NCBI GenBank assembly: GCA_949292785.1
Contig: CASFBK010000002.1
Span: 1-64,000 of the forward strand
Origin: an uncultured Eubacteriales bacterium
GTDB taxonomy: Bacteria; Bacillota; Clostridia; Lachnospirales; Lachnospiraceae
Length of the DNA stretch: 64,000 nucleotides
Direction of reading: 5' to 3'
Shown: positions 45,731-59,074 of the stretch, in pieces
Layout: every line of letters begins with the position of its first letter
How positions within the stretch are numbered: the stretch's first letter is position 1
Translations under genes and position numbers: made by a program
Notes under the pieces: generated by a model
Database searches by the model: none
What the model saw: only the letters and a program-made list of their open reading frames with translations
What the model was told of the DNA's origin: nothing

Positions 45731-45846
45731 TACTGCAAGTTAATCAAAGCAACCAATTATGGAAACAGGACAAAGGTGTCATAATACCCGCGTTCTGTTT
45801 TTTTGTGGAATTATCCATATCTTACAGGAAGTGAGGAGTGAATGAA

Positions 45847-46887
45847 ATGAAAGCAGTAGTGTATGAAGGAGTAGGAAATTTTCGGCTGGAGGAACGACCG
45901 ATGCCGACATTGTTAGACAGTCGGGATGCAATTGTCAAGGTAACGCTTGCGTCCATATGTTCCAGTGACATCCACATCAAGCATGGAGCAGTGCCACGTG
46001 CAGTTCCGGGAACGATTGTAGGACATGAATTTGTTGCAGAAGTAGTCGAAGTTGGCACAGATGTAAAGAAGTTCAAATCAGGAGACCGGGTAACGGTAAA
46101 TGTGGAAACTTTTTGTGGAGAATGTTTCTTTTGTAAAAGAGGTTATGTGAATAACTGTCAGGATAAGCATGGAGGGTGGGCATTAGGCTGCCGCATTGAT
46201 GGCGGTCAGGCAGAGTATGTAAGAGTACCTTATGCAGATAACGGATTAAATCATATTCCGGAAGGAGTAAGCAATGAAGAAGCACTCTTTGTTGGAGATA
46301 TACTGGCAACCGGTTACTGGGCAGCTCAGATAGCAGAAATCAAACCGGCAGACGCCGTAGTAGTATTAGGAGCCGGACCTACCGGATTGTGTACGTTAGA
46401 ATGTGTGAAATTGTATGGTCCGGAAAAAGTTATTGTAATAGATACCTCAGAGGAACGTCTGGAACTGGCAAAGAAACAAAAAATAGCAGATATAACAATC
46501 AATCCCTTAAAGGAAGATGTAGAGAAAGTGGTTCTCGCACATACAGAAGGCAGAGGTGCCGATGTGGTGTTAGAAGTTGCGGGAGGAAAGGATACGTTCC
46601 AGACCGCGTGGAAGGTAGCAAGACCAAATGCCACTGTATGTATAGTGGCATTATATGAAGATAGTCAGGAATTACCTCTGCCACAGATGTACGGGAAAAA
46701 CCTTACCTTCAAAACCGGAGGTGTAGATGCTTCATGCTGTGAGGATATTTTAAAATTGATTGCCTGCGGAAAGATACGCACAGATTACATGATTACACAT
46801 CGGGTAAAACTGGCAGATATTATGGGGGCATATCATATTTTTGAAAATAAACTGGACCATGTAATCAAGGTGGCAGTAGAGCCATAA
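45847..46887 (+). CDS. Zinc-dependent alcohol dehydrogenase (MDR family)
   Basis: A 346-aa medium-chain dehydrogenase. The catalytic-zinc region has ICSSDIHIKHG and GHEFVAEVVEVG. The structural zinc lobe has CGECFFCKRGYVNNC, and the NAD-binding motif is VVLGAGPTGLC. The start is ATG 45847 (GAGGAG 8 nt before), not GTG 45838. It resembles threonine/sorbitol-type dehydrogenases. As first gene of the island, 71 bp before the binding protein, it may interconvert an alcohol and aldehyde in the same pathway; the substrate is unknown. Confidence 0.85.
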   Translation: MKAVVYEGVGNFRLEERPMPTLLDSRDAIVKVTLASICSSDIHIKHGAVPRAVPGTIVGHEFVAEVVEVGTDVKKFKSGDRVTVNVETFCGECFFCKRGYVNNCQDKHGGWALGCRIDGGQAEYVRVPYADNGLNHIPEGVSNEEALFVGDILATGYWAAQIAEIKPADAVVVLGAGPTGLCTLECVKLYGPEKVIVIDTSEERLELAKKQKIADITINPLKEDVEKVVLAHTEGRGADVVLEVAGGKDTFQTAWKVARPNATVCIVALYEDSQELPLPQMYGKNLTFKTGGVDASCCEDILKLIACGKIRTDYMITHRVKLADIMGAYHIFENKLDHVIKVAVEP

Positions 46888-46958
46888 AAAATAACTGGTA
46901 AAAACGTGCAACCGGGAGTTTAACCTCCCTGCAAATAAATGAGAAAAGAGGTAATATT

Positions 46959-48197
46959 ATGAAAAATGCAGTAAAAAGAGTATTAACAGTAGTAATGGCA
47001 GTGATTCTCTGTGTTGGAATGACCGCATGCGGCAGTGATTCCAGCGGAGCATCCACAGCAGACAAGTCAAAGGAAGAGGCAAAAGGAGGAACCGCTGCAT
47101 CCGGTGATACGATAAAAGTCGGACTTCTTACCGCTTCTAGTGGTGGAACAGCGGTATTAGATGGTTATATTGCCAATGCTGTCATTATGGCAGTGGATGA
47201 AATCAATGAAGCCGGAGGCGTAAATGGAAAGCAGATTGAACTCATAAAAGAAGATTATGCTTCTGATCCTGCCATGGCAGCAGAAAAAGCAGAAAAGCTA
47301 ATCGTAAATGATGGGGTATCCTGTATTATCGGCGTCGTATTATCTTCCTGTCGTCAGGCAGTGTTACCGGTGGTAGAAAAGTATGATAATCTGTTGATTT
47401 ATCCTACGGATTATGAAGGATTAGAACAGTCTGATAATATTATCTATGTAGGTTGTGTGCCAAATCAGCAGATTCAGACAATTGCACCATGGCTGGCAGA
47501 AAATGTTGGAAAGAAAGTATATTTGATTGGAAATGATTATTTATATCCAAGATCTACTCTTGCACAGATGAAAGCTATGTTAGAAGAAAACGGTGCAACA
47601 GTGGTGGGAGAAGAATATATTGCAATGGATGAAACAGATTATACAGCGTCTATTTCCAAGATTATGGATGCTGAACCGGATGTAGTATTTTCCGTATTGG
47701 TAGGAGACTGTATTACTGCATTCCAGAAGCAGTATGCACAATACGGTATCGATGATATTGAAATGTTCCATCTGTGTCTGGATGAATCAGGAGCCGAAGC
47801 AATCGGCATTGAAAGCTGCGAAGGTGTATATTCCGGACAAACATATTTCTGTACCGTAGAAACAGATGCCAACAAAGTATTTAGAGAAAAATATAAAGAA
47901 GCGTATGGTACAGAACCAACCGTATATGCAAGCAATGGATATGTAGCTGCAAACCTTCTGGCAAAAGCATTAGAGTCAGCAGGAGAAGAATTCACAACAG
48001 AAGATTTGGTAAATGCATTCCGCGGACAGAGCTTTGAAGGACCGGCTGGCTTAACAACGGTGTGTGACAATAATCATTGTACCGTAACACCCAGAATTGG
48101 TCAGGTAAATGCAGATGGATTGTTTGATATATTATTTGAGAGTGAATCCCCGGTAGAGCCGGACCCACAAGCGGGAGCAAAATATTATACAGAATAA
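46959..48197 (+). CDS. urtA: Urea/amide-type ABC substrate-binding lipoprotein (UrtA-like)
   Basis: A 412-aa type I periplasmic-binding-fold lipoprotein with lipobox GMTAC (about Cys23). Segments typical of the UrtA/AmiC/FmdD group are KVGLLTASSGG, EDYASDPAMAAEKAEKLI, YPTDYEGLEQSDNI and CVPNQQIQTIAPWL. AAAGAGG precedes the start. The next four genes encode the matching permeases and ATPases. No urease is in the window, so an amide or a related nitrogenous compound is likelier cargo than urea as a nitrogen source. Confidence 0.85.
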   Translation: MKNAVKRVLTVVMAVILCVGMTACGSDSSGASTADKSKEEAKGGTAASGDTIKVGLLTASSGGTAVLDGYIANAVIMAVDEINEAGGVNGKQIELIKEDYASDPAMAAEKAEKLIVNDGVSCIIGVVLSSCRQAVLPVVEKYDNLLIYPTDYEGLEQSDNIIYVGCVPNQQIQTIAPWLAENVGKKVYLIGNDYLYPRSTLAQMKAMLEENGATVVGEEYIAMDETDYTASISKIMDAEPDVVFSVLVGDCITAFQKQYAQYGIDDIEMFHLCLDESGAEAIGIESCEGVYSGQTYFCTVETDANKVFREKYKEAYGTEPTVYASNGYVAANLLAKALESAGEEFTTEDLVNAFRGQSFEGPAGLTTVCDNNHCTVTPRIGQVNADGLFDILFESESPVEPDPQAGAKYYTE

Positions 48198-48210
48198 AAG
48201 GTTGAAGGAG

Positions 48211-48241
48211 CGAAGGAGCTGTTTGACATACAGCTCTTTCG
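48211..48241 (+). promoter_or_regulatory. Intra-operon stem-loop after the binding-protein gene
   Basis: A 12-bp stem CGAAGGAGCTGT / ACAGCTCTTTCG (one G-U pair) with a 7-nt loop. It may be a partial terminator or mRNA-protecting hairpin that raises binding-protein expression over the permeases. Confidence 0.55.
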
Positions 48242-48269
48242 TCATATTTACAGGATAGGAGGAGTCAAT

Positions 48270-49124
48270 ATGCTTCTTACATTTATTATAAACGGACTCA
48301 TGACAGCGGCATCACTGCTGATGCTGTCCATGGGAATGGCGATTATTTTCGGTATTATGAACGTAGTAAACCTGGCACATGGGGAACTGATTATTATCGG
48401 GGCATATGTGTCATATACGATGATTGGTATTTTACAGCTGCCATTCGGGATTGCTTTGCTAAGTTCCTTTGTGGTAACCGGAATTATTGGTGCAATCATC
48501 GAAAAATTAGTAGTAAAAAAACTATATGGAAAAACAGCAGAGACGTTGTTGGTTACTTATGCATTATCTATGATTTTTCAACAGGTTATTAAGCTGTTAT
48601 ATGGTGCAGGATATATTCATCTGTCTTCACCTGTATCTGGTGCGGTAAAAATAGGAAAAGCGATTATGCCTGTGTATTACATCTGTATTATTGCGGTAGC
48701 AGCAATTATGTTTCTTGTAACTCTTATTTTATTTCACAAGACCAGGCTTGGCATGCAGATTCGTGCAGTTAGTCAGAATCGTACCATGGCAGGATGCCTC
48801 GGAGTAAATGTTAAAAAAATCGATACCCTGACCTTTGCATACGGAGCGGGGCTGACCGGACTTGCCGGTTGTATGATTGCACCAATTAATTCCATTTCAC
48901 CTTTTGTTGGTTCTAATTATATCGTAGATACTTTTATGACGGTGGTATTAGGGGGTGTAGACTCCCTGTTCGGAAGTGTCTTAGGTTCCGTGATTATTGG
49001 AGAAAGCAATGCAGTGATTGGTGGATATATTGATACTGTATTCGCAGAAATGATTGTTGTATTCGCAGTAGTAGTAATAATAAGATTTAAGCCTAAGGGA
49101 CTGATTGTAAGGGAAAGGAGGTAA
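48270..49124 (+). CDS. urtB: ABC permease, UrtB/LivH type
   Basis: A 284-aa permease with about eight membrane segments. The N-terminal MLLTFIINGLMTAASLLML and the region GIMNVVNLAHGELIIIGAYV are standard for LivH/UrtB. TFAYGAGLTGLAGCM and TVVLGGVDSLFGSVLGS form the coupling part. GGAGGAG precedes the ATG. It is followed by the UrtC-type gene after 6 bp. Confidence 0.9.
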   Translation: MLLTFIINGLMTAASLLMLSMGMAIIFGIMNVVNLAHGELIIIGAYVSYTMIGILQLPFGIALLSSFVVTGIIGAIIEKLVVKKLYGKTAETLLVTYALSMIFQQVIKLLYGAGYIHLSSPVSGAVKIGKAIMPVYYICIIAVAAIMFLVTLILFHKTRLGMQIRAVSQNRTMAGCLGVNVKKIDTLTFAYGAGLTGLAGCMIAPINSISPFVGSNYIVDTFMTVVLGGVDSLFGSVLGSVIIGESNAVIGGYIDTVFAEMIVVFAVVVIIRFKPKGLIVRERR

Positions 49125-49130
49125 CAGAGA

Positions 49131-50192
49131 ATGAAACAAAAATTATTTTCGAAGGACAATCCCATGTCCATGATGTTTATCATAGATATTCTGCTGTTTG
49201 TCTTTCTTGCGATTTTTCCGTTGTTTGTAAATGAATTTCGATTGCAGATTATGGCAAAGTGTCTCTGCTATATCGTATTTGCCTATTCTCTGGATTTGCT
49301 TTGGGGATATGTAGGACTGATGAGTATGGGACATGCAGTTTTTTTCGGTATAGGTGCATACATTGTGGCAATAGGCTATTCCATGGAGGGTGGAATTCCG
49401 TCTTATATGACAAGTCTTGGAGTTATGAAAGCACCGGGAATTTATTATGTGCTTGCTCATAAACCGATAGCTTTTTTTGCAGCATTGATAGGCTGTGGCG
49501 TAGTAGCCAGTATTCTGGGAGCATTTCTGTTTACCAAAAAAGTGAACAGTGTCTTTTTCTCTTTGATTACCTTTGCATTAGCAAGAGTATTTGAGTTATT
49601 GATTATCAATCAGCAGAAGTATACCGGTGGAGCCAATGGCATTACCCAGGTTCCGTCAAAATTACTGGTAGATGTTGAAATACCGGATAACATATATTAT
49701 TTTGTTCTGCTTGGAATTGTAGTTCTGGTGTATGTATTCTGCCGTTATCTTACAAACAGCAGATATGGATTGATATTGGAAGCAGTTCGTGAAAACGAAG
49801 ACCGCTTGAACTTCTTTGGCTATAATGTGGTCCGGTTTAAGGTAGTTGTTTTTATTATTTCAGCGGTAATTGCAGGACTGGCAGGAATCATGTTTGCTAC
49901 TTCCCAGTCATTTATCGGACCTTCCAATGTAGGCATCTCTGCATCTACAGCGGTATTAGTATGGCTGGCGCTTGGAGGAAGAGGAAATATAACCGGAGCA
50001 ACGGTTGGAACATTGGTAGTCTGCTGGGCAGAAAGCCTTTTTTCGGAGCAGCTTACAGATTATTGGAACATTATCTATGGCATCATGGTACTTCTGGTAG
50101 TGTTTTTCATTCCCAAGGGAATTGTTGGAACCCTGCGGGAAGCAGTGTATAACAAGCGCACAGAAGCAAGGCATAATTTGGAATTAGAGTAG
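49131..50192 (+). CDS. urtC: ABC permease, UrtC/LivM type
   Basis: A 353-aa permease with about nine membrane segments. SLDLLWGYVGLMSMGHAVFF is the characteristic LivM/UrtC motif. AVRENEDRLNFFGYN and ISAVIAGLAGIMFATSQSFI follow. GGAAAGGAGG precedes the start. It pairs with the preceding permease. Confidence 0.9.
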   Translation: MKQKLFSKDNPMSMMFIIDILLFVFLAIFPLFVNEFRLQIMAKCLCYIVFAYSLDLLWGYVGLMSMGHAVFFGIGAYIVAIGYSMEGGIPSYMTSLGVMKAPGIYYVLAHKPIAFFAALIGCGVVASILGAFLFTKKVNSVFFSLITFALARVFELLIINQQKYTGGANGITQVPSKLLVDVEIPDNIYYFVLLGIVVLVYVFCRYLTNSRYGLILEAVRENEDRLNFFGYNVVRFKVVVFIISAVIAGLAGIMFATSQSFIGPSNVGISASTAVLVWLALGGRGNITGATVGTLVVCWAESLFSEQLTDYWNIIYGIMVLLVVFFIPKGIVGTLREAVYNKRTEARHNLELE

Positions 50193-50207
50193 AAAGGGGG
50201 AAAGGAT

Positions 50208-50984
50208 ATGTCAGATATCAGGGAAAACCGTCTTGTAGTTCGTGGATTAAGTGTAAGCTTTAATGGATTTGTAGCAGTAGACCAGGTGGATTTAACCGTA
50301 GAACCGGGAGAAACGAGAGTGATTATCGGACCTAATGGTGCCGGAAAGACAACACTGCTTGATTTAATAACCGGAAAAACTGCCGCTACAGCAGGAACGG
50401 TGGAATTTCGCAATCATCAGCTTGCAGGGAAAAGTACATCAGAAATCTGTAACAAATATCACGTGGGACGTAAGTTTCAGGGACCAAATGTATTTCATGA
50501 ACTGACGGTTCATGAGAATATGCAGCTTGCCATGATGGGAAATCAGTCCATGGGATTTTATGTATTCAGCCAAAAGACCAGAGAGGAAGAGGAGCGGATT
50601 GACGCGTGCCTGAAAAAAGTAAATCTGCTGGAATATAAAGAGGTAAAAGCAAGTTCACTTTCTCACGGACAGAAGCAATGGCTGGAGATTGGAATGGTAA
50701 TTTTACAGAACGCAGAATTAATTGTATTAGATGAACCTACCGCAGGAATGACAGCAGAAGAGACCTACAAGACCGGAGAAATGATAAAGAATAATCTAAA
50801 AGAAAAAACAGTATTGGTTATTGAACATGATATGGATTTTGTAAAACAGATTGCAGAAAAAGTAACGGTTCTTCATCAGGGGCGTGTGTTGGCGGAGGGA
50901 ACCTTTGAAGAGATGGAAAATGATCCTCGTGTCATCTCGGTATACCTGAAACAGACAGAAGAAGAGGAGGATGCGAAATGTTAG
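50208..50984 (+). CDS. urtD: ABC ATPase, UrtD type
   Basis: A 258-aa ATPase. It has Walker A GPNGAGKTT, the UrtD-like segment VGRKFQGPNVFHELTVHEN, signature LSHGQKQWLEIGMV and Walker [12 protein letters not shown]. It overlaps the UrtE-type gene by 7 bp. The VGRKFQ-P-VF element favours the urea/amide branch over LivG. Confidence 0.9.
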   Translation: MSDIRENRLVVRGLSVSFNGFVAVDQVDLTVEPGETRVIIGPNGAGKTTLLDLITGKTAATAGTVEFRNHQLAGKSTSEICNKYHVGRKFQGPNVFHELTVHENMQLAMMGNQSMGFYVFSQKTREEEERIDACLKKVNLLEYKEVKASSLSHGQKQWLEIGMVILQNAELIVLDEPTAGMTAEETYKTGEMIKNNLKEKTVLVIEHDMDFVKQIAEKVTVLHQGRVLAEGTFEEMENDPRVISVYLKQTEEEEDAKC

Positions 50985-51676
50985 AGTTAAAGGACGTACA
51001 TGTAAGCTATGGGAAAAGTAAAGTAATCAATGGGATTGATTTTTCCATGGAGACCACAGAAAAAGTAGCGTTGCTGGGAAGAAACGGAGTGGGAAAAACC
51101 ACATTGCTGAAAAGTTTAATTGGTGTACTGCCAGTAGAGTCAGGAGAAATCAGATATGAAGACACCCTGATGAACAAAAAGAATACCTATGAACGTTCCG
51201 CTGCCGGGATTGCTTATGTGCCTCAGGGGAGAGAAATTATTCCTGATTTTACCGTAAAAGAGAATCTGGAGCTGGGCGGTATTTCCGTCAAAAAGAATAT
51301 GGTAAATGACAGAATAGAGGAAGTATTGGGATATTTCCCGGCACTGAAAAAGCATTACATTCGTAAAGGAGGCGTATTGTCGGGCGGGCTGCAGCAACAG
51401 CTGGCAATTTCCAGAGCATTGATGTCTCACCCTAAAATTCTTTTGTTAGACGAGCCAACGGAAGGTATTCAGCCCAACGTTGTAGCTGAAATAGCGGATA
51501 TTTTGAATCGTATACATGTGGAAATGAATGTCGGGTTGATTTTAGTGGAACAAAATCTGAAGTTTGCATTTCACATCTGTGATTCTTACATTCTGATGCA
51601 GAAAGGAAAAATTGCAAATGCAGGAAAGAATGGAGAACTAACAGATGACATTATCAAAAAATATTTGACCGTATAG
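50978..51676 (+). CDS. urtE: ABC ATPase, UrtE type
   Basis: A 232-aa ATPase. It has Walker A GRNGVGKTT, YVPQGREIIPDFTVKENL, signature LSGGLQQQLAISRAL and Walker B LLLDEPTEGIQPN. The TEGIQP element is characteristic of UrtE. It is followed by the nitrilase-family gene after 12 bp, within the same transcript. Confidence 0.9.
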   Translation: MLELKDVHVSYGKSKVINGIDFSMETTEKVALLGRNGVGKTTLLKSLIGVLPVESGEIRYEDTLMNKKNTYERSAAGIAYVPQGREIIPDFTVKENLELGGISVKKNMVNDRIEEVLGYFPALKKHYIRKGGVLSGGLQQQLAISRALMSHPKILLLDEPTEGIQPNVVAEIADILNRIHVEMNVGLILVEQNLKFAFHICDSYILMQKGKIANAGKNGELTDDIIKKYLTV

Positions 51677-51688
51677 GAGGAAAGCAGG

Positions 51689-52645
51689 ATGAGAAAATAT
51701 GAGGATATTATTACAGTAGCCACTGTAAATTTTCGTCAGGTGTGGGGAAAGAAAGAGAGCAATCTTGCCCGTATCAAGGGATATATTTGTGCAGCAGCTA
51801 AGGCAGGAGCAGATGTAATTGTATTTCCGGAGATGGCGTTGAATGGATATGATGATGAAAGTGATGTGCCAAAACCGGAAAAAATGCAGATTCGGGAAGC
51901 CGAGGTTTTACATGGACCATCTGCCCAGGCAGTGGCAGAGATAACGAAAAAGTACGGAGTGTATGCCGTATTTGGAATGGCAGAAAGAGAAGAAGAAGAT
52001 TCCCAAATCGTATATAATTCGGCGGTCGTGTGCGGACCGGAGGGCATTATGGGTTCTTACCGCAAGATTCATCCCGCATTGGCAGAGCAGTGCTGGTGCG
52101 AGCGGGGAAATGAGCCATATGCATTTCCAACTCCATGGGGAGATATTGCGATCGGTATCTGCTATGATACTTATAATTTTCATGAACTGATGCGCTATTA
52201 TGCGGCAAGTGGAAGCCGTTTATATTTAAATCCCACTGCCATAGGTCCAAGTGGCAGACATGACTGGAGAGACTATTATATGACAGGATTGAAACAGGGC
52301 GTGAACTCCTGTGAAATTTTTATTGCCAGCTCCAATTTAGTAGGAAACAGCTTTGTAGACGAAGAGGAAGGTGGAAGCCTTGGAAATATCAAGGAAGTTG
52401 GTCCCGGCTGTGGAGGTGGAAGTATGATTTTAGGACCAGGTTTAAATGACAAGCTCCATATCTATGCCGGAGATGTAGATGATAACGAAGAGGGATTTTG
52501 TATAGCGACCATCGACCTGTCTTTAGCAACCCGCAGAAACTTTAAGGTGGACCCGGTAAAAGGCTGCCCGGATTACCGACCGGATATTTATCAGAAGTTG
52601 AATGAAAAATTATTAGAAACACCATTTTGGAAACAGTTTGTCTAG
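51689..52645 (+). CDS. Nitrilase-superfamily carbon-nitrogen hydrolase (amidase or carbamoylase)
   Basis: A 318-aa hydrolase with the Glu-Lys-Cys triad: Glu in VFPEMALNGYD, Lys in SYRKIHPAL and Cys in IGICYDTYNFHE. The second Glu-like region precedes the Lys as in the family. Members hydrolyse aliphatic amides, N-carbamoyl amines or beta-ureidopropionate. It lies directly after the urea/amide importer and before a cytidylate-kinase-like gene, so it probably acts on the imported compound or on a ring-opened product. Specificity is unresolved. Confidence 0.87.
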   Translation: MRKYEDIITVATVNFRQVWGKKESNLARIKGYICAAAKAGADVIVFPEMALNGYDDESDVPKPEKMQIREAEVLHGPSAQAVAEITKKYGVYAVFGMAEREEEDSQIVYNSAVVCGPEGIMGSYRKIHPALAEQCWCERGNEPYAFPTPWGDIAIGICYDTYNFHELMRYYAASGSRLYLNPTAIGPSGRHDWRDYYMTGLKQGVNSCEIFIASSNLVGNSFVDEEEGGSLGNIKEVGPGCGGGSMILGPGLNDKLHIYAGDVDDNEEGFCIATIDLSLATRRNFKVDPVKGCPDYRPDIYQKLNEKLLETPFWKQFV

Positions 52646-52656
52646 GAGGAAAGCCT

Positions 52657-53298
52657 ATGAAAAATTATATTATCACCATTGCCAGAGGCTTTGGCAGTGG
52701 AGGAAAAGACATTGCCAACAGGCTGGCGAAGAAGTTGAACATCCCCTGCTATGAACGGGAAATTTTGGAGATGGCATCCGAGGAAACGGGATTGGATGTA
52801 GGGGTATTTCTTGAAGTAGATGAAAAGTTAAGAAAAAATACCATATTAAAAAATATTCAGACCGTACAGACGGAATATGTCATAGAGCCTACGGAAAAGG
52901 ATTTTGAATCGGATGACAATCTGTTTCATATTCAGGCACAGATTATTCGTACACTGGCAAGCTCCGATATGTCCTGCATCATTGTAGGAAAGTGTGCAGA
53001 TTATATTTTGAAGGATTATGACAATGTAGTCAGCGTTTATATCGAAGCCCCCAGAGAAGCGTGTGTGGAATCTATCAAGGCAAAGCTGAATGTTTCGGAA
53101 AAGGAAGCACATCGTATGATACGAAGTACAGATAAATACCGCGCCAACTATTATCGGTATTATACCCGTGGAAATGACTGGACCAACCCTATTAATTATC
53201 ATATGACATTGAATTCTGCCAGAGTTGGAAGAGAGGGATGTGTAGACATTATAGCTGATTATGTGAAAGAAAAATTTCCGGAAGTATTTCAAGAGTAA
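52657..53298 (+). CDS. Cytidylate-kinase-like family protein (copy 3)
   Basis: A 213-aa P-loop protein and close paralogue of copy 2 (33832). Matching segments are ITIARGFGSGGKDI, IIVGKCADYIL, VYIEAPREACVESI, RMIRSTDKYR and DWTNPINYHMTLNSARVG. ATG 52657 has AGGAGGA 6 nt before and is preferred to the in-frame 52627 start, which lies inside the preceding gene. As in the first island it follows an amidohydrolase gene. The repeated placement suggests a shared accessory role in these catabolic units. Confidence 0.8.
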   Translation: MKNYIITIARGFGSGGKDIANRLAKKLNIPCYEREILEMASEETGLDVGVFLEVDEKLRKNTILKNIQTVQTEYVIEPTEKDFESDDNLFHIQAQIIRTLASSDMSCIIVGKCADYILKDYDNVVSVYIEAPREACVESIKAKLNVSEKEAHRMIRSTDKYRANYYRYYTRGNDWTNPINYHMTLNSARVGREGCVDIIADYVKEKFPEVFQE

Positions 53299-54713
53299 TG
53301 CGTATGAAGAAAAGGCAGATAGCAGGTTTTATATTGGCAATGATGTCTCTTATTCTGATTATGGTATTTCCGGAAATAGAAGGATTGTCGGAAGAAGGAA
53401 AACGGTGTCTTGCGGTATTTGTTGCGGTATTTTTTCTATATGCATTTGAAGCAATGAATGCGGCGATTGTCAGTCTTGCCATTGTTCCCTTGCTGGTGTT
53501 TTTTAAAGTTACCCCCATAAAAGAAGCATTGGCAGGATTTTCTTCTACCTCTACCTATTTAATCGTAGGAGCATTTCTGTTGACGGGAGCAATGGTGAAA
53601 TCAAGGGCAGGAGACCGGATTACCTATTATATACTACTGTTAGTAGGTACGAAAAGCCGGAATATATCCTTTGGCATTATGTGTGTCAATATTCTGCTGG
53701 CGTTTATGATTCCGTCCTCCACTGCCAGAACGGCAATGATGCTCCCAATCTGTTTAAAAATTATTGAACAGTATCAGGGAGAGGGAAAAGATAAGACCAG
53801 ATTCGGAGCAAATCTTATGATGACCTTGTGTTGTACCAACTCAACCATCAGCTCTGGAATACTGACTTCTACGATTACGAATCCCATGGCAGTGGAATAC
53901 ATACAAACGATTACAGGGCAGACGATTACTTATCGTACCTGGCTTGTGTGGGGCGGTCCTCCGGCATTGGTCTGTACCTTGATAGCGTGGTTGATGATTC
54001 AGGTAATGTTTTCACCGGAAAAACCATGTATGGAGAATGGAAAATTTTATGTACAGCAAAAACTGCAGGAGCTGGGACGGGTATCCATCGAGGAAGTCAA
54101 GGTTATGGTAGTCCTGGGAGCCGCCATTTTGTTATGGTTTCTTGGCGACATGATAAATCTTGACAGTACCACAGTCTGCCTGATGTGCGGATGTCTGCTC
54201 TGTATTCCTAAGCTGGGCGTACTGTCCTGGAAGGATTGTACAAAAAATATTTCCTTAAGCGTCATGTTTGTAGTAAGTGGTGGAATCAGCCTCGGAACAG
54301 CAATGAGTACCACGGGAACAGCAACATGGCTGGCAGAAAGTATATTCCGCATCTTTGGTTTAGAGCGTTTGTCCGCGCAAATGCTGCTTCTGGCAATGAT
54401 TGTAATTATACAGTTTATGCATGTATTTTTTTCCGGAACAGCAACTATGGCAAATGTGTTTTTTCCGGTAGTGGCAGGAATTGCCGGGGTTGCGGGAATT
54501 TCTCCAGTGGTAATGGTGGTGGTTGCTGCATTTATGATAGGCGGCTATCCGGTGTTGATGTTTTTTAATACAACGCCTAATATACTTTGTTATGATACGG
54601 GACATCTGACAACAGGGGATTTTATAAAGTTCGGACTGGTATTATCCGTAGCAGCCTGTGTGGTCTATGGAATCTGTGTGGAATGGTACTGGTCCATGAC
54701 AGGAATGTTGTAA
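53298..54713 (+). CDS. DASS-family (SLC13) carboxylate transporter
   Basis: A 471-aa membrane carrier with about 11-12 segments, two helical-hairpin motifs (IPSSTARTAMMLPI near residue 137; FFSGTATMANVFFP near 378) and substrate-motif region CTNSTISSGILTSTITNP. The family moves di- and tricarboxylates or sulfate with sodium or by exchange. The start ATG 53298 overlaps the preceding TAA; ATG 53304, six bases later, has better spacing from AAGAG. In this island it could import a carboxylated substrate or export a carboxylate end product. Confidence 0.87.
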   Translation: MRMKKRQIAGFILAMMSLILIMVFPEIEGLSEEGKRCLAVFVAVFFLYAFEAMNAAIVSLAIVPLLVFFKVTPIKEALAGFSSTSTYLIVGAFLLTGAMVKSRAGDRITYYILLLVGTKSRNISFGIMCVNILLAFMIPSSTARTAMMLPICLKIIEQYQGEGKDKTRFGANLMMTLCCTNSTISSGILTSTITNPMAVEYIQTITGQTITYRTWLVWGGPPALVCTLIAWLMIQVMFSPEKPCMENGKFYVQQKLQELGRVSIEEVKVMVVLGAAILLWFLGDMINLDSTTVCLMCGCLLCIPKLGVLSWKDCTKNISLSVMFVVSGGISLGTAMSTTGTATWLAESIFRIFGLERLSAQMLLLAMIVIIQFMHVFFSGTATMANVFFPVVAGIAGVAGISPVVMVVVAAFMIGGYPVLMFFNTTPNILCYDTGHLTTGDFIKFGLVLSVAACVVYGICVEWYWSMTGML

Positions 54714-54766
54714 AAAGCAAAAGAGTAAAAATGCAAAAGAGTAAAAGGAACAGGAGAGAAAGGAAC

Positions 54767-55939
54767 ATGGAGAAAACAATAATTAAAAACATTGGACTTA
54801 TTGTAAGTGGTGATATAAATAACCCCATTTTAGAGGGGAATACAGTGGTGATGGAAGACGGAATTATCACGGCTGTTGGCGGGGAAGCATTGCTTGCAGG
54901 CATCAATGAGAAAAGTACAGATGTCAAGGTAATTGACGCAAAAGGAATTACGCTTACGCCGGGGCTGATTGATTCTCATGTACATACCAGCATTGGAGAT
55001 TATGCACCAAGGCAGAAGACACTCGACTTTATTTCCAGTGCACTTCATGGAGGGGTTACTACTATGATTTCAGCAGGAGAAGCGCATATCCCGGGCAGAC
55101 CCAAGGACCCGGCAGGAACCAAGGCATTGGCAGTGCTGGCGGCAAAGTCTTATGAAAACGCCAGACCGGCAGGGGTAAAAGTGCATGGCGGGGCATTAAT
55201 TCTGGAAAAAGGATTGACGGAAAAGGATTTTGAAGAATTAAAAGAGCAGGGAGTCTGGCTGGTGGGAGAAATCGGACTGGGAAGTGTGAAAAAGCCGGAG
55301 GATGCTGCGCCAATGGTAGAATGGGCACATAAAAACGGATTCAAGGTTCAGATGCATACAGGCGGAACGTCGATTCCGGGAAGCTCTACGGTAACAGCAG
55401 CAGATGTAATGGCAACGAAGCCGGATGTGGTTTCTCATATTAATGGTGGACCGACTGCTATTTCTTTAGAAGAAGTGGACCGGATTATGGATGAGACAGA
55501 TTTTGCATTAGAAATTGTCCAATGCGGAAATCCAAAGGTTGCAGACTATGTGGCAAGACAGGCAGCAAAAAAGGGAATGCTTGAAAGAATTATTTTTGGA
55601 AATGATGCACCAAGCGGAACGGGTCTGATTCCGCTTGGAATTATCCGTAATGTCTGCCAGTTGTCCTCGGTATCAGAAATTGCACCGGAACAGGCATTGT
55701 GTATGGCATCCGGCAACACCACAAAGGTATATGGACTAAATACCGGAGTCATTGCGGTAGGAAGAGAGGCAGACCTGGTTTTGATGGATGCGCCCATGGG
55801 AAGTGTTGGAAACAATGCATTAGAGGCAATCAGTGCAGGAGACATTCCGGGCATCAGTATGGTGTGGATAGATGGCAAATTACTGGTGAATAAGAGCAGA
55901 AATACACCGCCGGCAAAGACACAGGCAGTTGTTTTATAG
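54767..55939 (+). CDS. ena: Enamidase (nicotinate-fermentation type cyclic amidohydrolase)
   Basis: A 390-aa amidohydrolase. Metal and active-site segments are LIDSHVHTS, AGVKVHGGALILEKGL, KVQMHTGGTSIPGSSTV, VSHINGGPTA and FGNDAPSGTGLIPLG. These and the ADYVARQAAKKG and KSRNTPPAK elements closely match my recollection of Eubacterium barkeri enamidase. That enzyme opens 1,4,5,6-tetrahydro-6-oxonicotinate to 2-formylglutarate plus ammonia. ATG 54767 (AAAGGA) is chosen over the upstream frame start at 54683, which lies within the transporter gene. The next-but-one gene is the expected following enzyme of that pathway. Confidence 0.85.
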   Translation: MEKTIIKNIGLIVSGDINNPILEGNTVVMEDGIITAVGGEALLAGINEKSTDVKVIDAKGITLTPGLIDSHVHTSIGDYAPRQKTLDFISSALHGGVTTMISAGEAHIPGRPKDPAGTKALAVLAAKSYENARPAGVKVHGGALILEKGLTEKDFEELKEQGVWLVGEIGLGSVKKPEDAAPMVEWAHKNGFKVQMHTGGTSIPGSSTVTAADVMATKPDVVSHINGGPTAISLEEVDRIMDETDFALEIVQCGNPKVADYVARQAAKKGMLERIIFGNDAPSGTGLIPLGIIRNVCQLSSVSEIAPEQALCMASGNTTKVYGLNTGVIAVGREADLVLMDAPMGSVGNNALEAISAGDIPGISMVWIDGKLLVNKSRNTPPAKTQAVVL

Positions 55940-55969
55940 GATAGGATAAAAGAAAGGAAGGAAATCACT

Positions 55970-56554
55970 ATGGAATTATCAATCAGAAAAATCGTAACCA
56001 ATTTAGAGGAAATCAGATATGAAGGCTTTAAGGAATTAGAAAAGCCAATTAAAAAGTGCAGTGTATCTGCCGTAATCAAAAATCCATATGCCGGAAAGTA
56101 TGTGGAAGACCTGGCAATGCTTTCTGAAATTGGAAAGTTTTTAGGTGGAGAACTGACAAAGAGGGCGGTAGAAGCAATGGGTATTGAGCCGTCAGAAGCA
56201 AACAGCTATGGAAAAGGAGCAATTATTGGATTAAACGGAGAATTAGAGCATGGAGCTGCAATTCTTCATCCGCTGCTTGGAAAGCCAATGCGGGAACAGG
56301 TAAATGGCGGAAAGGCAATTATTCCATCTGCAAAAAAGGCAGGAACGGCAGGAACTTCCTTAGATGTACCTCTTCATTATAAAGATGCCGCTTTTGTACG
56401 CACCCATTATGATGCTATGGAGGTAAGAATCCCGGATGCACCTAAGGAAAATGAGATAGTAGTGTCGATTGTGGTAACCAATGGGGGACGTCCACATCCA
56501 CGTATTGGTGGCTTACAGATAAGTGAGGTGAAAGGTGAAGATGGCTTACGGTAG
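55970..56554 (+). CDS. Amino-acid-synthesis-family protein (DUF1185/AA_synth)
   Basis: A 194-aa protein of the PF06684-type family. Distinctive segments are MLSEIGKFLGGELTKRAVEA, SYGKGAIIGLNGELEHGAA, KPMREQVNGGKAIIPS and VTNGGRPHPRIGGLQ. The family's biochemical role is poorly defined and the historical name is not a functional proof. It lies 30 bp after enamidase and overlaps the dehydrogenase gene by about 14-20 bp, so it is embedded between two consecutive pathway enzymes. This suggests a role on the same intermediate, for example as hydrolase, isomerase or aldehyde-handling protein (inference). Confidence 0.75.
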   Translation: MELSIRKIVTNLEEIRYEGFKELEKPIKKCSVSAVIKNPYAGKYVEDLAMLSEIGKFLGGELTKRAVEAMGIEPSEANSYGKGAIIGLNGELEHGAAILHPLLGKPMREQVNGGKAIIPSAKKAGTAGTSLDVPLHYKDAAFVRTHYDAMEVRIPDAPKENEIVVSIVVTNGGRPHPRIGGLQISEVKGEDGLR

Positions 56555-57443
56555 TGATAAATTGGAAAAAGTAATTGGATTTATTGGACTTGGAGCCATG
56601 GGAAAGCCAATGGCAGAAAATTTTCTCAAGGCAGGGTATGAACTCAATGTGTTTGATGTGTCCGCCTTGGTCATGGAGAAATGGAAGAGAACGTCAGCAA
56701 ACTTATGCAAAAATGTAACAGAGGTAGCGGAGAAAAGTGATATTATCTTTTCCTCTCTGCCTAACGGAAAGATTGTACAGAGCATTATGGAGGGAGAACA
56801 AGGTGTCCTTGCTTCCTGTAAAACGGGAGCGGTCATTGTGGACTTAAGCAGTGTCGCACCGGAAACATCGGAAAGTCTCTGTCAGAAAGCTGGTGAAAAA
56901 GGCGTCTGCTATCTGGACTCTCCTGTCAGCGGAGGGGTTACGGGAGCACAGAAGGGGACACTGACATTGATGGTTGGCGGTGACAGGGAAGCGTACGAGG
57001 CAGTGCTGCCGGAACTAAACTGTATCGGAAAGAATATTTTCTATATTGGGAAAAGCGGTTCCGGTGATGCTATGAAGATTGTGAATAATCTACTGCTTGG
57101 ATGTAATATGGCAGCTCTGGCAGAAGCGCTGATTCTAGGAGAAAAGTGCGGGTTAGATTTGAAAACCATGAAGGAGATTATCAGCATCAGTTCCGGAAGA
57201 AGTTATGTGTCAGAAGCAAAGCTGGAGAATTTTATTATGCCGGAAAGCTATGACGGGGGATTTGCTATCAGTTTACAGCATAAAGACTTGAGTCTGGCAT
57301 TGGAGGCAGGAAAAGCAGTAACCATGCCCCTGCCGATGACCTCCATGGCGGCACAGATATACGAACTGGCAAAGGCAGAGGGGCTATCCCGAAAGGATAT
57401 TTCTGCCTTAGTCAAAATGTGGAGTGAACATACATTAAAATAG
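56541..57443 (+). CDS. hgd: 2-(hydroxymethyl)glutarate dehydrogenase-like beta-hydroxyacid dehydrogenase
   Basis: A 300-aa enzyme of the 3-hydroxyisobutyrate/tartronate-semialdehyde reductase family. The NAD motif is GFIGLGAMGKPMAENFLKAG, the substrate motif SPVSGGVTGAQKGTLTLMVG, and the catalytic Lys is in GSGDAMKIVNNLLLG. The stretches GCNMAALAEALILGEKCGL, SSGRSYVSEAKLENFIM and ISLQHKDLSLALEAGK resemble the E. barkeri enzyme that reduces 2-formylglutarate. ATG 56541 is preferred to GTG 56535. Methylmalonate-semialdehyde reduction is an alternative. Its 3' end overlaps the convergent LysR gene by 9 bp. Confidence 0.83.
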   Translation: MAYGSDKLEKVIGFIGLGAMGKPMAENFLKAGYELNVFDVSALVMEKWKRTSANLCKNVTEVAEKSDIIFSSLPNGKIVQSIMEGEQGVLASCKTGAVIVDLSSVAPETSESLCQKAGEKGVCYLDSPVSGGVTGAQKGTLTLMVGGDREAYEAVLPELNCIGKNIFYIGKSGSGDAMKIVNNLLLGCNMAALAEALILGEKCGLDLKTMKEIISISSGRSYVSEAKLENFIMPESYDGGFAISLQHKDLSLALEAGKAVTMPLPMTSMAAQIYELAKAEGLSRKDISALVKMWSEHTLK

Positions 57444-58319
57444 ATTGATGAACTCCAGTAGAGAAAGGGGCAGATTTGCATTTTTGCTCCAGACAAGATA
57501 CAGGTTAGCGTAGGAAACGGGATGAATGATTTTCTTAATTACAACATTATCGTCATCAATCAGCAGGGAGGAAGAGTAGGGCATAATAGCACATCCCAGA
57601 CCATTTACGGTCCATTCAATGGAGGTAATAATATTGTCATTGCGGGAAATGATATTAGGTTTTACATTTTTCTCCATGCAGGTATAGAGAAAGGATTCCT
57701 CAAAACGGCGATGAATTACTAATGGGAGATTGACAACATCAGAAAAATCAATGACACCTTGGGAATAATCGTGAAAAAATTCCCTGCGCCCGGTAACCAC
57801 AAAATAGTCATTCTCATCGTTAGAGGAATCCGGCATTTTTATCTGCTGGCAGGAGTAAAGACTGTGGTTAAAGGGTTCCCTTAGAATACCAATGTCTATG
57901 ATTCCGTTATCCAGCAGCTCCATGATGCGGATACTGCTCCCGTCATGGATATTAAATACCGTATGGGGATAGTGCTGCTTGTATTCCTTAATAATAGTAG
58001 GGAGCATATTGTGGTTTACACTGCTGACGGTGCCGATATTGATAATGGTAGGAGCGATGGTGGAAAAATCATGCAAGTCATCTACCGTCTGCTGGATAAG
58101 CGCCAGTATCTGCGTAGTTTTGTTTTGCAGATAGATGCCCTCGTTGGTAATGCGTAGGTTACGGGAGTCCCGGGTAAAAAGTGTAACGCCAAGTTCTTCC
58201 TCTAAAAGCTTTAACTGATAGCTTAAAGGCGGCTGTGAAATATTCAAAAGCTGTGCCGCCTTTGTGAGATTTCCGGTCTCTGCAATTTTTAAAAAGTAAG
58301 TTAATTGTTTTAGTGTCAT
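57435..58319 (-). CDS. LysR-family transcriptional regulator of the second island (probable)
   Basis: A 294-aa LysR regulator. The HTH is at residues 1-60 (AAQLLNISQPPLSYQLKLLE), and the effector domain at about 90-290 contains NIHDGSSIRIMELLDNGIID. It is convergent with, and overlaps, the last gene of the enamidase operon. It could control the dyad promoter at 45693-45730, which has a T-N11-A core. Its own upstream region lies between two 13-bp perfect inverted repeats (58324-58394). Confidence 0.85.
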   Translation of the reverse strand: MTLKQLTYFLKIAETGNLTKAAQLLNISQPPLSYQLKLLEEELGVTLFTRDSRNLRITNEGIYLQNKTTQILALIQQTVDDLHDFSTIAPTIINIGTVSSVNHNMLPTIIKEYKQHYPHTVFNIHDGSSIRIMELLDNGIIDIGILREPFNHSLYSCQQIKMPDSSNDENDYFVVTGRREFFHDYSQGVIDFSDVVNLPLVIHRRFEESFLYTCMEKNVKPNIISRNDNIITSIEWTVNGLGCAIMPYSSSLLIDDDNVVIKKIIHPVSYANLYLVWSKNANLPLSLLEFINLF

Positions 58320-58423: not shown

Positions 58424-58702
58424 TTATTTCTTGGATGATACGGATAGTGTTAGTCCCAAAGGGCGCATAATTTTAAGTAAGGTATCAAGATTGGGTGTGG
58501 TTTTGTAGGATTCAATTCTCGCAACAGAGGATTGTGGGATGCCGCAAAGTGATGCAAGCTCACGCTGACTGATGCCCATAGCCTTTCGTTGTTCAATAAG
58601 AGCACCGACAATAGGGGCAATACTTTCAATTTCCTCAATATCCTTTTGACCTTTTGGATCAACAGACTTTACATGTTCTTTATAATCATTCCATGTTTTC
58701 AT
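58424..58702 (-). CDS. HigA-type antitoxin (XRE family)
   Basis: A 92-aa helix-turn-helix protein. The XRE domain covers about residues 30-85 (QRKAMGISQRELASLCGIPQ, ARIESYKTTPNLDTLLKIM). It begins 3 bp after the toxin stop, giving the toxin-first HigBA order. The protein should neutralise the RelE-like toxin and repress the operon through its dyads at 59114-59170. Confidence 0.88.
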   Translation of the reverse strand: MKTWNDYKEHVKSVDPKGQKDIEEIESIAPIVGALIEQRKAMGISQRELASLCGIPQSSVARIESYKTTPNLDTLLKIMRPLGLTLSVSSKK

Positions 58703-58705
58703 ATC

Positions 58706-59074
58706 TTATGATTCCTCCCTTCTGGATAAGTAATCATCTCGCTCTGCTTTTGCTTTGTTAATTTCGCGACGAGGCGTTTTCTGTGATTTCTTACGGAAAC
58801 TGTGAAGAAGAACATAGGTATTGTCTTTAGAATAAAAATAAAAAACTCGATTGTTTCCAGGGCGTAGTTCCCAGATATCTTCTTCAATATGCTTCGTAAT
58901 GTTATCTGGAAGTTGGGTACCGTTGTCTTGTAGTAACTGAATATAAAGCATTACTTGCCGGTATTGTATCCTTGCATTTTTGTTTGAGTTAGATTTAGAA
59001 CGCAAAGTTTCCAGAAAGTTCCAAACCTCAGATTCACCATTTTGTTTTTCATAGAATTCAATGTTATATCCCAT
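58706..59074 (-). CDS. HigB/RelE-family toxin
   Basis: A 122-aa RelE/ParE-fold toxin: N-terminal YNIEFYEKQNGESEVWNFL, central DIWELRPGNNRVFYFY and LLHSFRKKSQKTPRREINKA, the phage-derived Gp49-like/HigB signature. Such toxins cleave mRNA in the ribosome. It is followed by the XRE antitoxin after 3 bp. Confidence 0.88.
   Translation of the reverse strand: MGYNIEFYEKQNGESEVWNFLETLRSKSNSNKNARIQYRQVMLYIQLLQDNGTQLPDNITKHIEEDIWELRPGNNRVFYFYSKDNTYVLLHSFRKKSQKTPRREINKAKAERDDYLSRREES

Follow-up and report, generated by a model that had tools for sequence, protein, structure and literature searches.

The window analyzed here is a 64,000-nucleotide stretch of DNA from an uncultured, gut-type Eubacteriales bacterium of the Lachnospiraceae (assembly GCA_949292785.1, contig CASFBK010000002.1). 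It carries a 13-gene island that includes an enamidase of the type known from nicotinate fermentation in Eubacterium barkeri. Twelve of the genes (45838-57443, + strand) form one operon-like run with intergenic gaps of at most 72 bp, three overlaps and open frames throughout, and a LysR-type regulator on the opposite strand ends the island:

45838..46887, + strand: Zn-dependent medium-chain alcohol dehydrogenase, secondary-alcohol/threonine dehydrogenase-like, first gene of the proposed entry module (PF08240/PF00107)
46959..48197, + strand: UrtA/AmiC-like substrate-binding protein of an ATP-binding cassette (ABC) importer (PF13433, 6e-101)
48270..49124, + strand: UrtB-type permease (TIGR03409)
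49131..50192, + strand: UrtC-type permease (TIGR03408)
50208..50984, + strand: UrtD-type ATPase (TIGR03411)
50978..51676, + strand: UrtE-type ATPase (TIGR03410)
51689..52645, + strand: CN-hydrolase (nitrilase superfamily), putative amidase of an unnamed subfamily (PF00795, 1e-34)
52657..53298, + strand: Cytidylate_kin2 protein (PF13189, 9.4e-52; solved relatives 3hdt and 3fdi)
53298..54713, + strand: DASS-family carboxylate carrier, proposed exporter or exchanger (PF00939, TIGR00785)
54767..55939, + strand: enamidase (75% identity to the E. barkeri enamidase, 2vun)
55970..56554, + strand: AA_synth protein, a frequent enamidase partner (PF06684)
56535..57443, + strand: 2-(hydroxymethyl)glutarate dehydrogenase (HGDH)-like protein of the beta-hydroxyacid dehydrogenase family (best solved match 3cky)
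57435..58319, - strand: LysR-type regulator, island end (PF00126, PF03466)

An earlier note on this DNA had described enamidase-like and HGDH-like genes flanking an AA_synth gene, together with Urt-like genes, a nitrilase-family hydrolase and a DASS carrier. All of these are present in open frames and in one direction; the alcohol dehydrogenase at the head of the run, which that list omitted, is added here. The guanine-plus-cytosine fraction of the island bins (0.41-0.45) lies within that of the window bins (0.37-0.45) without a compositional break, and base composition speaks neither for nor against a recent transfer.

The enamidase aligns with the E. barkeri enzyme (PDB 2vun) at 648.8 bits over 390 columns, which places its start at 54767 by homology and not at the first ATG (54683). 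Residues H71, H73, E168, H197, H224 and D280, which correspond to the metal site in the amidohydrolase superfamily pattern, are invariant in 31/31 aligned rows, window included. It is the single enamidase of this kind in its genome, the four further matches having E values of 6e-6 or weaker.

The adjacent AA_synth protein scores 243.8 bits against PF06684 (9.6e-73; gathering score 27) and has 2qtp and 3byq as solved relatives. Its context was compared over 38 enamidase loci. They come from a scan of 84,980 species for exact matches to two peptide motifs, so that relatives lacking the motifs would be missed. Gene counts at these loci were taken from tblastn on DNA, as open reading frame calls are unreliable in the GC-rich ones, and are lower bounds because many loci are cut by contig ends. 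AA_synth lies within about 4 kb of the enamidase gene in 33 of the 38. In E. barkeri (L012, 11194-11775) it directly follows the enamidase gene, and AA_synth thus belongs to the known nicotinate cluster too. Plasmids yielded 25 records with enamidase-like proteins, all below 60% identity, and AA_synth is present in 5/6 of the plasmid neighborhoods examined, Prescottella being the exception. By tblastn, the 6-hydroxynicotinate reductase gene hnr was found in three of these six (Sulfitobacter twice and a Comamonadaceae, 39-43%) and not in Agrobacterium vitis, Shinella or Prescottella. In A. vitis, where no hnr lies nearby, an AA_synth gene (36% identical) and the enamidase-like gene share 4 bp, showing that enamidase-AA_synth pairing without hnr exists outside this island.

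A separate observation concerns the plasmid of Sulfitobacter sp. M368 (L055, 12001-21429), where an enamidase-like gene, two AA_synth genes, a UPF0280 gene and a 6-hydroxynicotinate reductase-like gene stand together; L054 and L056 are alike, and the Sulfitobacter clusters additionally hold a molybdopterin hydroxylase. A reductive pyridine route in such plasmid clusters of marine and plant-associated proteobacteria is possible.

AA_synth-family structures have a chorismate-mutase-like fold with a histidine cluster, and branched-chain amino-acid ABC genes as neighbors (PMC2954203), while TgnF of trigonelline breakdown is named as an AA_synth/DUF1185 homolog (PMC7913881). In the passages of these two papers that were covered, no reaction is assigned to BB2672, SPO0826 or HcdD. 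The substrate of the island's AA_synth may be the ring-opened intermediate, whose enamine hydrolysis or tautomerization it could, for instance, accelerate.

Among solved structures, the HGDH-like protein matches E. barkeri HGDH best (3cky, with 339 bits against 208 for the runner-up), and its score against the 3-hydroxyisobutyrate dehydrogenase model TIGR01692 (265.1 bits) is under the cut-off of 291.6. By these scores it is nearer to E. barkeri HGDH than to 3-hydroxyisobutyrate or tartronate semialdehyde enzymes. K181, N184, N185 and S132-G133-G134 are invariant in 23 aligned rows, window included, and the protein carries SSGRSY at 219 and a VFD motif. The DASS carrier scores 250.9 bits against TIGR00785 (cut-off 198.6).

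The remaining steps of nicotinate fermentation were sought in the island's own genome (3.65 Mb, 30 contigs, 99.74% complete) with the E. barkeri proteins from L012 as queries; gene names of that cluster follow its 2006 description. The hnr query returned a 61-residue ferredoxin stretch only and the 2-methyleneglutarate mutase (mgm) query a B12-binding stretch only. There was no match for the nicotinate hydroxylase large subunit (ndhL) at 0.001 and none for 2-(hydroxymethyl)glutarate dehydratase (hmd). As positive controls in the 13 genomes behind the comparison loci, hnr matched in 11/13, mgm in 6/13 and ndhL in 9/13 (the last at 1e-20, where weak matches of 30-40% may be other molybdenum hydroxylases); the hmd query was controlled by tblastn on the loci (8/38) only and not on whole genomes. 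The hydroxylase, reductase, dehydratase and mutase that the earlier note had missed locally were thus not found in the whole genome either, and a full pathway elsewhere in the genome, which would have spoken against its proposal, was not encountered as far as these four enzymes go; the search did not extend to methylitaconate isomerase (mii) or to dimethylmaleate hydratase (dmdAB) and lyase (dml). This genome could still encode a ring-reducing enzyme from a different family.

Comparison of other enamidase neighborhoods, which that note had also suggested, revealed the same shortened set at two further loci, L016 (a Clostridium sp. metagenome-assembled genome, MAG) and L030 (a Lachnospiraceae MAG), and hnr, ndhL and mgm were not found in these genomes either. 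The order there is LysR, HGDH, enamidase, AA_synth and DASS, followed by dehydrogenase, UrtABCDE, CN-hydrolase and kinase-like gene, the second block coming first in the window; L016 has an extra nitroreductase-family gene between LysR and HGDH. The outer flanks share no further island gene with the window, showing only 27-35% matches to its non-island genes, and the unit is therefore these 13 genes. The lactate dehydrogenase gene 238 bp upstream of the run has no counterpart in the L016 and L030 loci. On the other side, next to the LysR gene, Gp49-like (HigB-type) and HTH_3 proteins (58424-59074, - strand) are a likely toxin-antitoxin pair.

Within the island, conservation is highest in the entry block and lowest in HGDH and DASS. 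Identity to the window in L016 and L030 is 77-80% for the dehydrogenase, 71-84% for the importer (UrtB 78-83%, UrtC 75-78%, UrtD 73-78%, UrtE 78-84%), 79-80% for the CN-hydrolase and 69-80% for the kinase-like protein. The corresponding values are 68-74% for enamidase, 74-76% for AA_synth, 51-53% for HGDH, 50-55% for DASS and 57-61% for LysR. The three LysR proteins form one clade (Shimodaira-Hasegawa-like approximate likelihood ratio test, 97).

Across the 38 loci, tblastn detected hnr in 31, mgm in 8, hmd in 8 and DASS in 7. The block of dehydrogenase, importer, hydrolase and kinase-like gene occurs in two, L016 and L030. Seven loci showed no hnr: three of them stop close to the enamidase gene (L011, L020 and L041), two are from Chloroflexi (L042 and L043), and L016 and L030 extend far on both sides. 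At E<=1e-80 an enamidase was found in 0/60 relatives, including 28 same-genus genomes, some of them incomplete, and in 2/397 family genomes, namely the island's own and one that agrees with L016 in contig number and position.

The comparison genomes fall into three grades. In the full grade (L012, L007, L010, L018, L023 and L022), hnr, ndhL and mgm all match in the genome, in L022 on a different contig than its DASS locus. A grade without mutase, in which hnr matches and mgm does not, comprises L006 (Hespellia), L025 (Pelosinus), L009, L015 and L027; ndhL has no match in L009 and L015 and matches at only 42% in L027. The third grade, without reductase, hydroxylase and mutase, consists of the window, L016 and L030. 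Strain names are available for L006, L012, L023 and L025, and the other nine genomes, L016 and L030 among them, are MAGs of unstated completeness.

Three further observations were made at these loci. In the Hespellia stercorisuis genome (G455) hnr is in two pieces on two contigs, perhaps through an assembly split. In E. barkeri, hnr is followed by an ApbE-related gene (L012, 3289-4161; named UPF0280 in the plasmid records), which is present in 29/31 hnr loci and is a possible reductase partner. Similarly, a PTS_EIIC_2-family protein (PF13303) in the E. barkeri nicotinate cluster (L012, 8733-9908) and in several related loci may be a nicotinate permease.

Turning to the entry block, the nearest solved structures to the alcohol dehydrogenase are 5yln and 4cpd, followed by isopropanol dehydrogenases, with secondary-alcohol enzymes among them. 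It carries C41, GHE from 62, GD from 153 and VID at 200-202; this VID and the VFD of the HGDH-like protein would suggest NAD for both. In the CN-hydrolase, E48, K126 and C158 are present, presumably the Glu-Lys-Cys triad of the nitrilase superfamily. Ten NCBIfam families match this protein at 0.001 and none comes near its curated cut-off; a structure prediction from three sequences was unusable (mean predicted local distance difference test 37). Orthologs (79-80%) occur in 2/13 comparison genomes, those of L016 and L030, two others giving partial matches of 35-36%, and no plasmid match was obtained at 1e-40. The earlier note had spoken of an amide importer, and a Urt-type importer is indeed present, although two of its five subunits pass the urea cut-offs and it may simply import urea. 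UrtB (264.6 bits, cut-off 250.3) and UrtD (320 bits, cut-off 304.1) exceed them, UrtC (276.5 bits) is under its 296.2, and UrtE (284.2 bits) misses its 285.8 by 1.6. The binding protein reaches 317 bits against TIGR03407, far under the urea cut-off of 492.75, and its nearest solved relatives are 8tg1, then UrtA and AmiC.

Taken together, these features somewhat favor reading the island as a shortened form of anaerobic nicotinate breakdown whose entry module has been exchanged. The modules are closely spaced, are joined by a 1-bp overlap between the cytidylate-kinase-like and DASS genes, and are kept in three genomes as a conserved variant. The core of the reading is likely, while the exact substrate is a guess; every reaction and the direction of transport given below are proposed from gene content, null searches, conservation and operon-like layout. 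Enamidase would open 1,4,5,6-tetrahydro-6-oxonicotinate to 2-formylglutarate and ammonia, assisted in some way by AA_synth, and HGDH would reduce 2-formylglutarate to 2-(hydroxymethyl)glutarate. With no dehydratase or mutase found to carry it further, DASS would then export this product. The earlier note had likewise proposed dicarboxylate export, and this part of its proposal is consistent with the locus survey: none of the seven DASS loci among the 38 holds mgm, as expected for export where the lower pathway is missing. L028, which has a partial mgm at the locus edge below the tblastn threshold and was not counted, is without DASS.

The Urt-type importer, CN-hydrolase and alcohol dehydrogenase would together form an entry module for an already non-aromatic substrate. 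Since the genome search gave no ring reductase of the Hnr type, a substrate that has already reached the tetrahydropyridine level is expected. The amidase would convert a carboxamide to the ring carboxylate, and the alcohol dehydrogenase a ring 6-hydroxy group to the 6-oxo lactam, for a likely gain per molecule of two ammonia with zero net redox change. The substrates suggested in the earlier note, a partly reduced cyclic enamide or its carboxamide, would fit, but that note gave no role to the conserved alcohol dehydrogenase or to AA_synth.

Several points weigh against this reading. HGDH of this type is fast-evolving, with an end branch of 1.15 for the window protein, and a shift in its substrate may have occurred. 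DASS has only distant solved relatives (best at 98-99 bits, to chloroplast dicarboxylate transporters 1 and 2.1), too remote to indicate its substrate or direction of transport. The importer may carry urea, given that UrtB and UrtD pass the urea cut-offs and UrtE nearly does. Only three members of the arrangement were found, and single absences in L016, L030 and the seven other MAGs are weak evidence. Furthermore, the three islands do not group together in the enamidase tree, where the window falls with Hespellia (97/96) and L016 with L030. A single clade for the three was not rejected by approximately unbiased (AU) tests for enamidase (p-AU 0.197), HGDH (0.384) or AA_synth (0.089), and DASS leaves it open; for this reason we dropped the idea that the entry module had been joined to two cores on separate occasions. 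Of the 38 loci, the enamidase trees comprised 31 plus the window, or 28 plus the window for the AU test; mis-called rows were left out, as were L042, L043 and the partial L041 from the smaller tree.

Since the amidase and dehydrogenase steps would turn a 6-hydroxy carboxamide into the enamidase substrate, a reduced nicotinamide would suit the entry enzymes. A more specific and rather speculative version is that the island degrades damaged or reduced nicotinamide, importing the 6-hydroxy-1,4,5,6-tetrahydronicotinamide base derived from NAD(P)H hydrate (NAD(P)HX). After Urt import, the dehydrogenase would oxidize the cyclic hemiaminal to a lactam and the CN-hydrolase would remove the carboxamide nitrogen. 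Enamidase would then open the ring, HGDH reoxidize the NADH and DASS release 2-(hydroxymethyl)glutarate. Enzymatic hydration of NADH to beta-6-hydroxy-1,4,5,6-tetrahydronicotinamide adenine dinucleotide appears in the reference list of PMC5938422. A weakness of this version is that the conserved set includes no nucleosidase, so the free base would need to be imported. A loose parallel is offered by two Chloroflexi loci that show no hnr over the stretch: in each, the gene of an isochorismatase-type hydrolase shares 1-4 bp with that of an enamidase-like protein (51-52% identity). L043 (369-12183) also has nucleoside hydrolase and PfkB kinase genes close by, and L042 (4098-7653) an adenine deaminase gene; the isochorismatase-type hydrolase of L043 has its best score with RutB, far below the cut-off, and may equally serve pyrimidine use.

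Among the rival explanations, cross-feeding holds up best, though we regard it as improbable. Here tetrahydro-6-oxonicotinate or its amide would be taken up from Hnr-bearing neighbors, with the alcohol dehydrogenase in a side role. The upper steps do exist in other bacteria and no new chemistry would be required. However, conservation of the dehydrogenase equals that of importer and amidase, a point in favor of a direct role, and leakage of the tetrahydro-6-oxonicotinate intermediate is not documented in the literature covered.

It is also unlikely that the island combines two unrelated neighboring functions, a nitrogen importer for urea or short amides with its amidase and an orphan enamidase-HGDH core. 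The permease and ATPase scores just described and the UrtA and AmiC relatives of the binding protein would fit such a split, yet the binding protein itself is far below the urea cut-off. The modules also stay together in three genomes despite their swapped order, with close spacing and the 1-bp overlap. Moreover, among 391 class genomes a CN-hydrolase match at 1e-50 was found only in the island's own and one other (G302, 44%), and the 10.7 kb around the latter contain no match to the importer, dehydrogenase or enamidase/core.

That the core enzymes were repurposed for another enamide and aldehyde unrelated to nicotinate seems very doubtful. HGDH (51-55%) and DASS (50-59%) are the least conserved proteins among the three members and HGDH branches are long, which would fit such a shift. 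By contrast, of 120 alignment columns without variation across 26 other enamidases, the window enamidase keeps all 120 (L016 keeps 116 and L030 115), and AA_synth is 74-81% identical among the three. Finally, a decaying remnant of the full pathway is hardly credible: the distribution is patchy, with enamidase in 0/28 same-genus genomes examined, several incomplete, but no frame is interrupted, the genes are arranged like an operon, and three genomes retain the set together with an extra conserved module.

If the island is indeed a truncated nicotinate pathway with an exchanged entry, anaerobic nicotinate breakdown would consist of exchangeable modules and not of one fixed pathway, occurring in full, without the mutase, or without reductase, hydroxylase and mutase. 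Under this reading 2-(hydroxymethyl)glutarate is predicted to be secreted, enamidase would have a new use, and the AA_synth family would gain a testable function. The reduced-nicotinamide version, if true, would provide a biological sink for NAD(P)H damage products; to our knowledge, NAD(P)HX is otherwise known for repair only. The arrangement was not met in the literature covered on enamidase, nicotinate fermentation, NADHX/tetrahydronicotinamide, TgnF and the cytidylate-kinase-like family, a coverage that most subscription papers fall outside.

Among known systems, the E. barkeri cluster shares with the island an orthologous enamidase with AA_synth directly after it, HGDH and a LysR gene (L012). 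Unlike that cluster, the island stands in a genome where ndhL, hnr, hmd and mgm were not found, and it adds the Urt importer, CN-hydrolase, alcohol dehydrogenase, cytidylate-kinase-like protein and DASS. The mutase-less clusters (Hespellia stercorisuis DSM 15480, Pelosinus propionicus DSM 13327, L009, L015 and L027) also have enamidase, with DASS in 4/5 (the L015 locus ends first), HGDH in 4/5 and AA_synth in 3/5; they differ in keeping hnr, with ndhL matches in 3/5, and L027 has a PnrA/Bmp-type ABC importer and no Urt block. Importers of urea and short-chain amides (UrtABCDE, AmiC-type) resemble the island in the A-E gene order, the binding-protein family and UrtB and UrtD scores over the urea cut-offs, and differ in that the island binding protein scores well under its cut-off and UrtC and UrtE slightly under theirs. 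Lastly, the AA_synth/DUF1185 proteins BB2672, SPO0826, HcdD and TgnF are of the same family and likewise stand in ABC-transporter or catabolic neighborhoods, whereas the AA_synth of the island is tied to enamidase.

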